Shown here piece after piece: positions 312-5,202 of a DNA stretch of 33,978 nt (the stretch's first letter is position 1; each line of letters begins with the position of its first letter). The stretch is from Candidatus Omnitrophota bacterium (lineage in GTDB: Bacteria > Omnitrophota > Omnitrophia > Omnitrophales > Aquincolibacteriaceae): contig JAQTOZ010000009.1 in assembly GCA_028713205.1 (NCBI GenBank), forward strand, positions 1 to 33,978. The letters run 5' to 3'. The notes below the pieces were generated by a model, which saw only the letters and a program-made list of their open reading frames with translations, was not told the origin of the DNA and ran no database searches. The position numbers were made by a program, and so were the translations under genes.

Positions 312-1529
312 TTACTTTTTCCCCAATTTAAATTCGCCGTGCAGGACACGCAGGGCTTCACGGCCCTTGTCCCCGTCCACGACGCAGGAAATTTTAATCT
401 CGGACGTCGAAATCATGTCGATGTTGATCTTCTTCTTGGCCAGCGCCCCGAACATACGTGAGGCAATGCCGGAGTGCGAACGCATGCCGACGCCGACCAC
501 GCTGACCTTGGCGATATTTTCATCGCACACCACGCTCTTGGCCTTCACGGCCTTCGCCGCCTTCTGCACAACGGCCAACGCGCGAGCGAGCTCGTTCTTA
601 AAAACGGTGAACGAGATGTCGGTCGTGTTCGTTTTCGTTTTGTTCTGAATGATCATGTCGATATTGATGTTCGCGTCGGCAAACTTCTTAAAAAGCTGCG
701 CCGCGCTCCCGGGACGGTCCGGCACCTGAAAAATCGTGATTTTGGCCTCGTCTTCCGCCAAGGCCACTCCGCTAACAACAACCTCTTCCATTTTCTTGGT
801 CTCCTTTGTGATCAACGTTCCTTCCCGATTGTTCATGGAATTTCTGACATAAATCGGGACATTGAATTTTTTTCCGACCTCGACCGAACGGGAATGCATC
901 ACCTTCGCGCCGAGGGCGGCCAATTCCAGAATTTCATCATAGCTGATGACATCGATTTTGCGGGCATCGGAAACAATGCGCGGGTCGGCCGTGTAAATTC
1001 CGTCCACGTCCGTGTAAATCTCGCAATGCCTGGCCCGTAGCGCCTTGGCCAGTGCGACGGCGGTCAAATCGGAACCTCCGCGGCCCAGGGTCGTGATCTC
1101 TTCCGAAACCGTTTTTCCCTGAAAACCGGCCACGATGACGACGTTTTGTTCTTTCAATGCCTTTTGAATGCGTTCCGTACTGATATCCAGGATACGCGCC
1201 TTGGTATGAAAACGGTCCGTAATGATACCGACTTGCGGCCCGGTGAAAGACATCGCCTTGACGCCCAGCTGGTGGATCGCCATCGCCAAAAGCGCCACGG
1301 ACACTTGTTCGCCCGTCGAGAGCAGCATGTCCATTTCCCTTTCACTCGGCAGCTTGGTGATTTGGTCCGCCAGTTCGATCAAATCGTCGGTCATATCGCC
1401 CATGGCCGAGACCACCACCACCATCTGATGCCCCTTCTTTTTGGCCGCCACCACGCGCCGGGCAACGCGCATAATTTTCCCGGCATTCGCCACCGAGGAC
1501 CCGCCGTACTTTTGAACGATCAACGCCAT
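312..1529 (-). CDS. lysC: Aspartate kinase
   Basis: A 405-residue monofunctional aspartokinase catalysing ATP-dependent phosphorylation of aspartate, the first step to lysine, threonine and methionine. Visible motifs are KYGGSSVA at residues 8-15, the TTLGRGGSD nucleotide/substrate motif near 147-155 and, after about residue 260, two ACT domains (the first with [12 protein letters not shown]) that normally bind lysine or threonine for feedback inhibition. Length is normal for the lone LysC type (about 400-410). An AAGGAG ribosome site precedes the ATG. It follows the ApgM-like gene by 69 bp and precedes cimA by 10 bp, so it is very likely co-transcribed with hom and thrC. No asd (aspartate-semialdehyde dehydrogenase) gene is in the window. 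Confidence 0.97.
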
Positions 1530-1598: not shown

Positions 1599-2795
1599 TT
1601 ATTTTGAAAGAAAAAACCGAATCAACTCATTGGTTTTCAAGAACTTCAACTCGTTGGCGCGTCCCGTCAACTCCGAAAACTTCTCGCTTTCGTCCGGCAT
1701 CACATTTTTCCCGGCCACGACAAAAGGGACCGCGTCGCGGGTGCGCTTGCGCATTTTCCAGGACGTGACATGGCACGGGGTCACCAGCACGCGCGCTTCC
1801 TTGTTTTCTTCCAGATAAGCCTTGATCTTCGACAACAAAAAGAAATCGCAGGCCTCCAGGGCTGAAATCTTGGCCTTCATGTCGCCGTCCCGCCCGGCCT
1901 CGTCACAATCCTTCAGGAGCATGCACACAAAATCTTTTTCTTTCAGCTCGTCCATGAGGACCTTGGCCTTTTTCTCGTAACTTGCCGCGAGGTCGTCCGC
2001 CTTGTCTTCCACTTCGATCGCCGTCAGGCCGATCAAACGGGCGATCCCGTTCGCGTACGCGGCATTGCTGATCACCGACCCCGTCACGCCGAAAAGTTGC
2101 GTGAATTTTTCGAGTTTCGGTTTGGGCCCCTGTCCCCAAAGCCAAATCATGTTGGCCGGATTTTCCTCCAGGTCGACACGCACCTGATTGATTTCGTGGT
2201 CCTGCAGTAAAAGTTTGGTATCGTACATCAGTTTTTTCAAAAGCTCGCCGCCCGGCCCTTTGGGCAAATGGTCTTCGATGCTTTGACCGATGATGTCGTG
2301 CGGGCAGTCTGTCCGCGCCGAGAGGGCCTCGAATCCGTGCGAATCCTTGAGGACCGCGACGTGCCGGTAACCGGTCCCGGGAAAAAAACGGACAAAATCG
2401 CTGGCCACTTTTTTATTCAGGAAATTGATCAGCGCCCGCGCCTCTTTGGTCGTCACACAGCCCGCGGTCGGATCGGCCAGATTTCCGCCCGCCTCGGTGA
2501 TAAAGTTCACGCGGAAAGGAATTTCATTGTCCTCCAGTTTTAATTCCAGGTTCGCGGCCTCAATGGGACCGCGGCCCGTGTAAACTTTGTCGGCATCGTA
2601 TCCCAGGAGATTCAGGAACGTGATGTCGGGATAAGGCTCGAAATGGTTGGGGGTCAGTTTGGCCTGGCCCATTTTGCCGTTCTTCGCGAAAAAGTGCAGA
2701 TTCGGAAGCTTGGCGGTTTCCAGCGGCGTTTTGCCGTTCAGTTCTTCGGCCGGGTGGTCTGCGGCACCCGCCATTGCAATGATTATGTATTTCAT
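1599..2795 (-). CDS. ApgM-like / proposed homoserine kinase family protein, catalytic residues apparently lost
   Basis: A 398-residue member of the cofactor-independent phosphoglycerate mutase (ApgM) family; the branch found beside threonine genes is modelled as a proposed homoserine kinase (TIGR02535). Recognisable family landmarks are GKTPLETAKLPN (21-32), LLGYDADKVYTGRGPIEA (63-80) and DEAGRDGD (298-305). By eye against the family pattern, key positions are changed: DGxxD becomes AGAAD (Asp to Ala9), PGSD becomes PYPD (nucleophile Ser to Pro56), DEAGHDGD has Arg302 for His, the late Asp-His pair is Cys341-His342, and the last metal His is Arg351. AAGGTG precedes the ATG by 8 bp, and the start overlaps the thrC stop as ATGA. 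Its place between thrC and lysC fits the homoserine kinase step, but the altered centre argues against ordinary catalysis. The frame is intact over the full family length, so it is not an obvious pseudogene. Confidence 0.82.
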   Translation of the reverse strand: MKYIIIAMAGAADHPAEELNGKTPLETAKLPNLHFFAKNGKMGQAKLTPNHFEPYPDITFLNLLGYDADKVYTGRGPIEAANLELKLEDNEIPFRVNFITEAGGNLADPTAGCVTTKEARALINFLNKKVASDFVRFFPGTGYRHVAVLKDSHGFEALSARTDCPHDIIGQSIEDHLPKGPGGELLKKLMYDTKLLLQDHEINQVRVDLEENPANMIWLWGQGPKPKLEKFTQLFGVTGSVISNAAYANGIARLIGLTAIEVEDKADDLAASYEKKAKVLMDELKEKDFVCMLLKDCDEAGRDGDMKAKISALEACDFFLLSKIKAYLEENKEARVLVTPCHVTSWKMRKRTRDAVPFVVAGKNVMPDESEKFSELTGRANELKFLKTNELIRFFLSK

Positions 2796-3877
2796 TTCTG
2801 CATCACCTTTCTGACAGCATCGAGGGTTGGCTTGACCGATTCGACCCCGTCGTTAAAACTCAGGGCGAAATCGGGGTCCTTCAGCCCGTATCCGGTCAGG
2901 GTCATCACCACGCGTGTGCCTTCTTCAAAATAATTCCGTTTCGCCAATTTGATCACGCCCGCCACCGAGGCCGCCGAAGCCGGCTCCGCGAAAATGCCTT
3001 CACGCTCGGCAATAAACCGGTAAGCCTCCGTAATCTCCGCATCCGAGACGGCCTCAATCAGGCCGCCCGATTCGTCACGGGCCGCCACCGCACTCTGCCA
3101 GCTGGCCGGATTGCCGATACGGATGGCCGTCGCCAGCGTTTCCGGATTCTCGACACGTTTGCCCAGCACAATCGGCGCCGAACCTTCTGCCTGAAACCCG
3201 AGCATGCGCGGAAGGATTTCCGATTTCCCGAATTTGTGATACTCCCGGTATCCTTTCCAGTAGGCCGTGATATTGCCGGCATTGCCGACCGGAATGGCGT
3301 GATACTCCGGCGCGTCACCGAGATCATCCACGATCTCGAATGCCGCCGTCTTCTGCCCTTCGATCCGGAAGGGATTGATGGAATTGACAATCGTCACGCG
3401 CCCGTCTTCCGCGACCTGCTTGACCAATTCCAGGGCCTGATCGAAATTCCCTTCGATCATGATCACGTGCGCGCCGTAACGGTAGGCCTGTAAAAGTTTG
3501 CCCTTCGCGATTTTTCCCTGCGGGATCAGCACAAAACATTTCAGTCCGCTGCGCGACGCGTAAGCCGCGGCCGAGGCCGAGGTGTTTCCCGTCGAGGCGC
3601 AAATCACCGCTTTCGACTCAGCCTCCAGCGCTTTGGAAATCGCCATTGTCATACCGCGGTCTTTGAACGAACCGGTCGGGTTCAGGCCTTCGAACTTGTA
3701 ATACATCTTGACGTGCTTCAGCCCGAGTTTGCGGGGCAGCGCCTCCGCCAAAATGAGCGGCGTGTTGCCTTCATTCAATGAAATAATGGGCGTTGCGTCC
3801 GTCACCGGCAAAAATTCCTGGTAACGTTCAATGATTCCGATTTTCTTCACGGCATATTTTCGAGACTTTTGCAGCAT
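2792..3877 (-). CDS. thrC: Threonine synthase
   Basis: A PLP-dependent enzyme converting O-phosphohomoserine to threonine. The fold-type II signature LNPTGSFKDRGM is clear, with the Schiff-base lysine at residue 72 of the form starting at the ATG at 3877. The phosphate-binding stretch STGNTSASAA and the LNEGNTPL N-terminal motif are also present. This start gives 361 residues, normal for short bacterial ThrC, and has GGGAAAGG upstream. A TTG at 3910 would add 11 residues and overlap the hom stop, but its purine-rich stretch is too close to be a good ribosome site. The stop overlaps the next gene start as ATGA, implying coupled translation with the ApgM-like protein. An O-phosphohomoserine supply is required, so some homoserine kinase must exist in this organism. 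Confidence 0.96.
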   Translation of the reverse strand: MLQKSRKYAVKKIGIIERYQEFLPVTDATPIISLNEGNTPLILAEALPRKLGLKHVKMYYKFEGLNPTGSFKDRGMTMAISKALEAESKAVICASTGNTSASAAAYASRSGLKCFVLIPQGKIAKGKLLQAYRYGAHVIMIEGNFDQALELVKQVAEDGRVTIVNSINPFRIEGQKTAAFEIVDDLGDAPEYHAIPVGNAGNITAYWKGYREYHKFGKSEILPRMLGFQAEGSAPIVLGKRVENPETLATAIRIGNPASWQSAVAARDESGGLIEAVSDAEITEAYRFIAEREGIFAEPASAASVAGVIKLAKRNYFEEGTRVVMTLTGYGLKDPDFALSFNDGVESVKPTLDAVRKVMQK

Positions 3878-3906
3878 GCCAAACCTTTCCCGGTATTCCC
3901 CGGCGT

Positions 3907-5202
3907 TCAATTTCCTTCGATGCGAATCACCTGCGACTTGCCGCGGATGACATCCAAACGGGCAATCAGCCGGATGGCGTCGCGGACATCCCGTTCGTGG
4001 GCATGATGGGTAAGCAGAATGAGAGGGACGATCTTTCCCGCGCTGGTTTCTTTTTGCACACAGTCCGAGATACTGATGGAATGCGCGCCCAACACCCGCG
4101 AAATTTTAGCCAGCACGCCGGGACGGTCAATCACATGAAACCGCAAATAATAGCGCGACAAAATCGACGAGATGTTTTTGACCTTCAACCGCGCACGAAG
4201 ACCGCGCAACAAAATCATTTCATCCTCCAGCCGGCCCGGCATGCGCTTGGCAATGTCCGTCAAATCACTGATAATCGCGCTGGTCGTCGGCCGCTGACCG
4301 GCGCCCCGGCCGTAGAACAGCACGTCTCCGACCTCGTCGCCGCGCAGCAAGACCGCATTAAAGGCCTCGTTCACATTCGCAAGAATATGCGCTTTCGGCA
4401 GCAGTGTCGGCTGGACACGCGCTTCGATACCGGCCGCGGAAGCCTTGGCGATGGCAAGCAATTTGATGCGGTAACCGAATTCTTCGGCAAACGCGATGTC
4501 CTCGCTGCGGATTTCGGAAATGCCTTCGCAGTGAATGTCCTTGAACCGTACCTTGCCGCCGAACGCGAAACGCACCAGAATGGCCAGCTTGTGCGCCGCG
4601 TCAATCCCTTCGACATCCAGGGTGGGGTCCGCTTCCGCGTAACCTTTTGCCTGCGCCTGTTTGAGCGCGACTTGAAAATCCAGACCATCCTGTGTCATGC
4701 GCGTTAAAATATAATTACTGGTACCGTTGATGATGGAATGGATCGATTCGATGCGGTTCGCCACAAGCCCTTCCCGTAGCGCTTTGATCACGGGAATACC
4801 TCCGCCGACACTGGCTTCAAAAGCAATCATGCGGCGTCGCCGGACGGCCAACCCAAAAACTTCATCGCCGAATTCTGCCAGAAGTGCTTTATTCGCGGTC
4901 ACGACATGTTTCCCGTGCCGAAGAGCTTCGAGAACGACTTTACGGGCAACGCGCGTGCCGCCGATGAGCTCGATAATCACATCAATCTTCGGGTCCCGGA
5001 TGACTTCGAAGGCGTCGGTGGTAAACACGCCGGCCGGGATTCTCAGCGCACGCTGTCTTTCTTTGCGCACGTCCGCGACTTTCACGAGGTCGAAGGAGAC
5101 ACCCAGTTCCTTCTGATATAATTTGTGTTTGGCCCGCAAAACAGAATAAACGCCGGTACCAATCTGTCCCAACCCTAAAAGCCCGATGTTAAGTTTGCGC
5201 AT
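3907..5202 (-). CDS. hom: Homoserine dehydrogenase
   Basis: A 431-residue NAD(P)-dependent homoserine dehydrogenase reducing aspartate semialdehyde to homoserine. It begins with a Rossmann motif LLGLGQIGTGV (residues 8-18). The family core includes NGTSNYILTRM near residue 160 and EADPTLDVEGIDAAHKLAIL. It ends with an ACT regulatory domain (RFHVIDRPGVLAKISRVLG) near 350-430, the site of threonine feedback in characterised homologues. It is the first gene of the threonine operon and sits behind a clear promoter at 5251-5279 with a leader of about 40 nt. The ribosome site is weak (TAGGGA). thrC starts 29 bp after its stop. Confidence 0.97.
   Translation of the reverse strand: MRKLNIGLLGLGQIGTGVYSVLRAKHKLYQKELGVSFDLVKVADVRKERQRALRIPAGVFTTDAFEVIRDPKIDVIIELIGGTRVARKVVLEALRHGKHVVTANKALLAEFGDEVFGLAVRRRRMIAFEASVGGGIPVIKALREGLVANRIESIHSIINGTSNYILTRMTQDGLDFQVALKQAQAKGYAEADPTLDVEGIDAAHKLAILVRFAFGGKVRFKDIHCEGISEIRSEDIAFAEEFGYRIKLLAIAKASAAGIEARVQPTLLPKAHILANVNEAFNAVLLRGDEVGDVLFYGRGAGQRPTTSAIISDLTDIAKRMPGRLEDEMILLRGLRARLKVKNISSILSRYYLRFHVIDRPGVLAKISRVLGAHSISISDCVQKETSAGKIVPLILLTHHAHERDVRDAIRLIARLDVIRGKSQVIRIEGN

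Follow-up and report, generated by a model that had tools for sequence, protein, structure and literature searches.

A ThrB2-type protein of the Omnitrophota threonine operon with a broken two-metal centre is probably a non-catalytic accessory of threonine synthesis

The third gene of a threonine operon in an uncultured Omnitrophota bacterium encodes a ThrB2-type protein that has lost most residues of its metal centre (hereafter pseudo-ThrB2). Sequence comparison suggests that this protein is probably a neofunctionalised pseudoenzyme that assists threonine synthesis non-catalytically, by means of its cap domain, while O-phosphohomoserine would be made by a kinase not yet recognised or, in some members, by an intact paralogue. 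The stretch of DNA analysed, called the window, comprises 33,978 nucleotides of contig JAQTOZ010000009.1 (assembly GCA_028713205.1), and its operon has the order hom-thrC-[pseudo-ThrB2]-lysC:

3907..5202, minus strand: hom, homoserine dehydrogenase with a C-terminal ACT-like region, 431 aa (NF004976, 528 bits, cut-off 205)
2792..3910, minus strand: thrC, threonine synthase, 372 aa (TIGR00260, 327 bits, cut-off 167)
1599..2795, minus strand: pseudo-ThrB2, degenerate ApgM/TIGR02535-like protein, 398 aa (family profiles, alignments, AlphaFold2 model with mean pLDDT 95.5)
312..1529, minus strand: lysC, monofunctional aspartate kinase, 405 aa (NF005155, 596 bits, cut-off 346)

hom, thrC, and lysC each scored above the cut-off of a specific family model, and pseudo-ThrB2 was the exception. 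Its reading frame, running from 2795 to 1599, starts with ATG, contains no internal stop, and encodes the full-length 398-residue member that a sequence-only reading of the window had described. The start overlaps thrC by 4 nt (ATGA) in the window. The same 4-nt overlap, as ATGA or GTGA, was found repeatedly among relatives, and locus comparison indicated that the hom-thrC-X-lysC order is kept around the degenerate orthologues. A scan for promoters and terminators gave counts no higher than those in shuffled sequences. In other Omnitrophota, thrC was observed to be separated from the intact ThrB2-like gene by a CoaB-like gene (phosphopantothenoylcysteine synthase domain, called by eye; loci L103, L113, L119, L140, and L152).

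The active-site positions were mapped by pairwise alignment of the window protein to the archaeal phosphoglycerate mutase (PGM) structures 2zkt and 3kd8, by aligning a profile of intact relatives to 2zkt, 3kd8, and 3idd, which gave the same columns, and by aligning the window protein to the intact relatives, which agreed with the structure-based mappings. Seven positions were identified, which we take, from what is known of phosphoglycerate mutases, to form the two metal-binding sites and supply the nucleophile that characterise the alkaline phosphatase superfamily. Site 1 consists of D298, H302, and H351, and site 2 of D9, S56, D341, and H342. At positions 9, 56, 298, 302, 341, 342, and 351, intact proteins have D S D H D H H and the window protein has A P D R C H R; five of the seven residues are gone (D9A, S56P, H302R, D341C, and H351R), and D298 and H342 are kept. 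The substituted codons are as follows:

2769..2771, minus strand: codon 9, GCG, Ala in place of the metal-ligand Asp of intact relatives
2628..2630, minus strand: codon 56, Pro in place of the Ser that is nucleophile and metal ligand in intact relatives
1890..1892, minus strand: codon 302, Arg in place of the metal-ligand His of intact relatives; 29 of the 33 degenerate copies have Arg
1773..1775, minus strand: codon 341, Cys in place of the metal-ligand Asp of intact relatives; no degenerate copy (0 of 33) has kept the Asp
1743..1745, minus strand: codon 351, Arg in place of the metal-ligand His of intact relatives

The five substitutions read from the sequence alone were thereby borne out, as no alignment restored an intact Asp, Ser, or His at these positions. 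Since the gene is also degenerate in 32 other genomes, each with a full-length orthologue, the losses are not due to chance, and sequencing or assembly error was ruled out as their cause. An AlphaFold2 model of the window protein, built from an alignment of the window and locus proteins, had a mean pLDDT of 95.5 and a pTM of 0.92, and the predicted fold was intact. The best PDB match of the model was the archaeal PGM 2zkt_B (TM 0.78, 25% identity), followed by 3kd8 and 3idd. The fold of pseudo-ThrB2 is kept in the model, while its chemistry is gone.

To place the protein among its relatives, we compared 47 genomes of the order, mostly incomplete MAGs, from families designated f1–f8. The degenerate set consists of 33 full-length operon orthologues from f1–f4 of this single order of uncultured Omnitrophota, with identities of 50–66%. 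In none of the 33 is site 1 or site 2 complete; D341 is gone in all of them and H302 in 32. All 65 other Omnitrophota operon copies, two of them with a truncated N-terminus, keep DSDHDHH. In the tree, the degenerate copies formed one monophyletic group (support 100/100) nested among intact operon copies; its sister was the intact L038 of family f7, although the joining branch was weak (89/22). Judging from these sequences, both metal sites were apparently broken on the stem of the f1–f4 clade, minimally through loss of D341 and H302, in a single main origin. The 80 relatives listed in GTDB genomes were Omnitrophota/Omnitrophica MAGs, except for one labelled 'bacterium' and one Candidatus Kappaea frigidicola. 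A profile search of the phylum found a TIGR02535 member over the cut-off in 200 of 245 genomes; the 45 without such a match comprised 28 of the 47 in the order and 17 of the 198 outside it. In one genome (G025), a contig-end fragment of the degenerate gene (L030) carries an in-frame TAG, possibly reflecting decay or a sequencing error.

TIGR02535, the ThrB2 model, has previously been proposed to represent a homoserine kinase. The window protein scored 362 bits against it (cut-off 446.3), which is below the curated cut-off of 446, and 373 bits against NF003242 (cut-off 426), also below; against the broad model TIGR00306 it scored 368 bits and exceeded the cut-off of 320. Membership in TIGR02535 therefore failed by score, a correction to the sequence-only reading, and the wider family relationship and the place beside threonine genes stood. 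The protein shares with ThrB2 the linkage to threonine genes, a genome without ThrB over the cut-off, and descent from operon copies, and it lacks the two-metal site and Ser nucleophile of that family, as well as the catalytic residues of the ApgM proteins covered by TIGR00306. The catalytic residues are gone clade-wide (33 of 33 copies), under purifying selection (dN/dS 0.04–0.10) and with the intact predicted fold, as in a pseudoenzyme. By sequence, the degenerate copies are filed as a putative pseudoenzyme clade of the known ThrB2 family, lying outside that family by function. Annotation calls for caution, as the window protein passes the phosphoglycerate mutase model TIGR00306 despite its lost catalytic residues. 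A literature search, which left most subscription journals outside, found no report joining Omnitrophota with a pseudoenzyme.

The retained frame and operon place had been taken to imply selection, and we found this to hold. None of the 33 full-length degenerate frames contains a stop codon, the operon place is conserved, and dN/dS of close degenerate pairs was similar to that of hom, thrC, and lysC; a pseudogene was ruled out by the open frames and dN/dS. Over longer times the degenerate protein changes faster, because at a thrC identity of 75–80% it is 55% identical (a set that includes L048, described below) versus 73% for intact copies. The change is unevenly distributed along the protein, and conservation in the degenerate clade peaks in the following region:

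2187..2525, minus strand: cap domain (residues 91-203), part of the PF10143 match at residues 37-203

Mean pairwise identity in the degenerate copies was 69.4% in the cap versus 54.4% in the core. In intact operon copies it was 55.7% in the cap versus 64.5% in the core, and no comparable reversal was seen in the quarter-by-quarter identities of hom, thrC, and lysC. Among sites invariant in intact copies, 31 of 99 were lost in pseudo-ThrB2, 2 of 81 in hom, 5 of 150 in thrC, and 3 of 140 in lysC. Many columns of the former catalytic site and pocket had an entropy of 0 in intact copies and of 2–3 bits in degenerate ones; in the cap, entropy dropped. Positions 351, 245, 266, 271, 113, 341, and 295 are among the most variable columns of the degenerate clade, and the substrate-pocket motifs at 109–113, 166–168, 242–247, and 266–271 are also gone. 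The conservation of the cap is not wholly new, since part of its motif (KDxxGFxALSA) already occurs in the intact sister L038, as KDSHGFTALSA. These sequence patterns indicate that, in the degenerate clade, the cap domain has taken over from the metalloenzyme core as the more constrained part.

We searched the genomes for the missing homoserine kinase. GHMP-type ThrB over the cut-off was absent from 46 of the 47 genomes of the order, including the window genome, in which the search had been proposed; weak GHMP matches in the window genome and in the four relatives checked were identified as IspE and rejected as ThrB. The alternative kinase thrB_alt (TIGR00938) gave no match over the cut-off, and its few weak matches lay in long ORFs. 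A second shikimate kinase, for which Desulfovibrio provides a precedent (PMC5764234), was not found in 27 genomes of the family: 26 have one full-length shikimate kinase gene each, and none was found in G010. hom and thrC are strongly conserved in the genomes with the degenerate copy, and loss of threonine synthesis is therefore unlikely. As neither ThrB nor thrB_alt nor a second shikimate kinase was found, and as the degenerate copy is the sole family member in 22 of the 33 genomes, on paper the pathway lacks a homoserine kinase. Giant ORFs are known from Omnitrophota (PMC10066038). The weak, kinase-like TIGR00938 matches lie inside frames of about 1,300 to 15,700 codons, both in loci L161–L164 (G007, G002, G010, and G015) and at places in G018, G036, G004, and G042. 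Likewise, iPGM-like matches (TIGR01307) lie within long ORFs and not in a free-standing mutase (L165 in G032, 1303 codons; L168 in G038, 5231 codons). A glycolytic mutase role of pseudo-ThrB2 was considered and rejected: GpmI was absent over the cut-off, and GpmA was over the cut-off in 38 of the 47 genomes.

A second, intact copy, suggested as a further check, was present in the window genome and missing from most relatives with the degenerate copy. This non-operonic paralogue (C182:1202-2398, L003/L007) is 36% identical to pseudo-ThrB2, scores above the TIGR02535 cut-off, and has DSDHDHH complete; its clade is separate from the degenerate clade (support 100/100), and mean pairwise identity within this L007 type was 59.2% in the cap versus 71.4% in the core. 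Among the 33 genomes whose degenerate copy is full-length, 10 also carry the L007-type gene: the window genome and 9 of the 32 others. One genome (G020) has a distant, different family member (L033) beside the degenerate copy, and 13 of the 22 genomes with no other family member are at least 90% complete. In f1 and f4, the L007-type neighbours are an aldo/keto reductase gene and a ThiF-rhodanese gene, and in f3 they are other genes; threonine genes are absent. In the window genome, the paralogue is flanked by the aldo/keto reductase and ThiF/MoeB-rhodanese genes (L003:196-3607 in G000:C182), a neighbourhood whose role may be in sulfur or amino acid metabolism. The arrangement was observed, whole or in part, in the f1/f4 loci L029, L031, L032, L055, and L056, and is absent in f3.

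Since no replacement homoserine kinase was found, pathway logic alone still allows the operon protein to be the kinase, and the sequence-only reading had left the choice between a pseudoenzyme and altered catalysis open. A homoserine kinase or phosphotransferase with a metal-independent or rebuilt site, the main catalytic rival, would account for conserved hom and thrC alongside the kinase types not found, for the 22 genomes without another family member, and for the near-fixed Arg302 (29 of 33). We nevertheless consider it improbable and disfavour it, because no replacement residue set is fixed in the pocket: the former active-site positions vary more than almost any others in the clade, the pocket motifs are gone too, and the best conserved region is the cap and not the core. 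The pseudoenzyme arm is favoured by the nested clade of 33, the variable ligand positions, the low dN/dS, and the shift from core to cap. The degenerate protein might instead be a non-catalytic partner of the intact L007-type paralogue, the two together forming a homoserine kinase or a regulated heteromer. Both genes occur in the window genome, and within the order the L007-type gene is confined to f1, f3, and f4, which are families with the degenerate copy (0 of 7 genomes in f5–f8). Its presence in just 10 of 33 genomes, the 13 near-complete genomes with the degenerate copy alone, and its neighbours outside the threonine genes make such a partnership very unlikely.

Relaxed decay, in which catalysis was lost because a host or neighbouring organisms supply threonine and the gene persists as a relic, would fit the core evolving faster than in intact copies and the TAG in the G025 fragment. 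It is scarcely credible against 33 stop-free full-length frames with dN/dS of 0.04–0.10, strongly conserved hom, thrC, and lysC, and a cap conserved above the level of intact copies. A further possibility is that ThrB2 has had a non-catalytic role from the outset, in addition to the proposed kinase step or in its place, for example as a scaffold for threonine synthase, and that the clade kept that role alone. BT2402 of Bacteroides thetaiotaomicron is needed for threonine synthesis and threonine-free growth, yet does not complement E. coli thrB (PMC7311316), which agrees with this view. The G040 copy (L048, family f5), in which D9 and S56 were lost independently, also agrees, as it is kept in the only one of the 47 genomes with a true GHMP ThrB over the cut-off; this single case equally favours our preferred explanation, being what one would predict had catalysis become dispensable and the protein been retained. 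However, not one of the 65 intact Omnitrophota operon copies deviates at the metal site, and they therefore most likely catalyse something; we regard the ancient role as unlikely. It overlaps our preferred explanation and differs in the timing of the non-catalytic role. Somewhat more plausible, but still tentative, is that the ThrB2 family has a second, non-catalytic cap function, e.g. as a partner or sensor of threonine synthase, kept alone here, with a kinase of an unknown family making O-phosphohomoserine.

Here, we propose a model in which pseudo-ThrB2 is a non-catalytic accessory. The ancestor would have been the ThrB2-type (TIGR02535) protein, a proposed homoserine kinase, that Omnitrophota normally encode at position X of their hom-thrC-X-lysC operon. 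Before f1–f4 diverged, both metal sites would have been broken on the stem of their clade, at least through loss of D341 and H302, giving a stable pseudoenzyme. The protein would now act, via its cap domain and without catalysis, as an accessory or regulator of the threonine pathway; its likeliest binding partner would be threonine synthase, to which it is translationally coupled, or another enzyme of the operon. O-phosphohomoserine would come from an unrecognised kinase or, in some members, from the intact non-operonic paralogue. Of the earlier suggestion of a regulator or subunit of threonine synthesis, the non-catalytic protein under selection is upheld, and the specific role is our inference. 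A metal-less operon clade separates catalytic from non-catalytic roles in the ThrB2 homoserine kinase question and makes a second role testable, and genomes with hom and thrC and no recognisable homoserine kinase are a concrete place to seek a new one.

Among known systems, TIGR02535 has been named ThrB2 and found to be complementary to ThrB (PMC9026213), and the zinc-site residues are conserved in BT2402 (PMC9765024). The window protein resembles ThrB2/BT2402 in full-length homology, adjacency to hom and thrC, and occurrence in genomes without GHMP ThrB (PMC7311316, PMC9026213, PMC9765024), but BT2402 keeps its Zn-site residues, whereas the window protein lacks five of seven and scores 362 versus 446 bits. 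With archaeal ApgM (2zkt, 3kd8, and 3idd; TIGR00306) it shares the fold over the whole length and a score over the TIGR00306 cut-off; unlike ApgM, it has neither the two-metal centre nor the Ser nucleophile, and its organisms have GpmA. The C182 paralogue belongs to the same family at 36% identity but lies outside the threonine operon in a separate clade, with DSDHDHH complete and the core more conserved than the cap.
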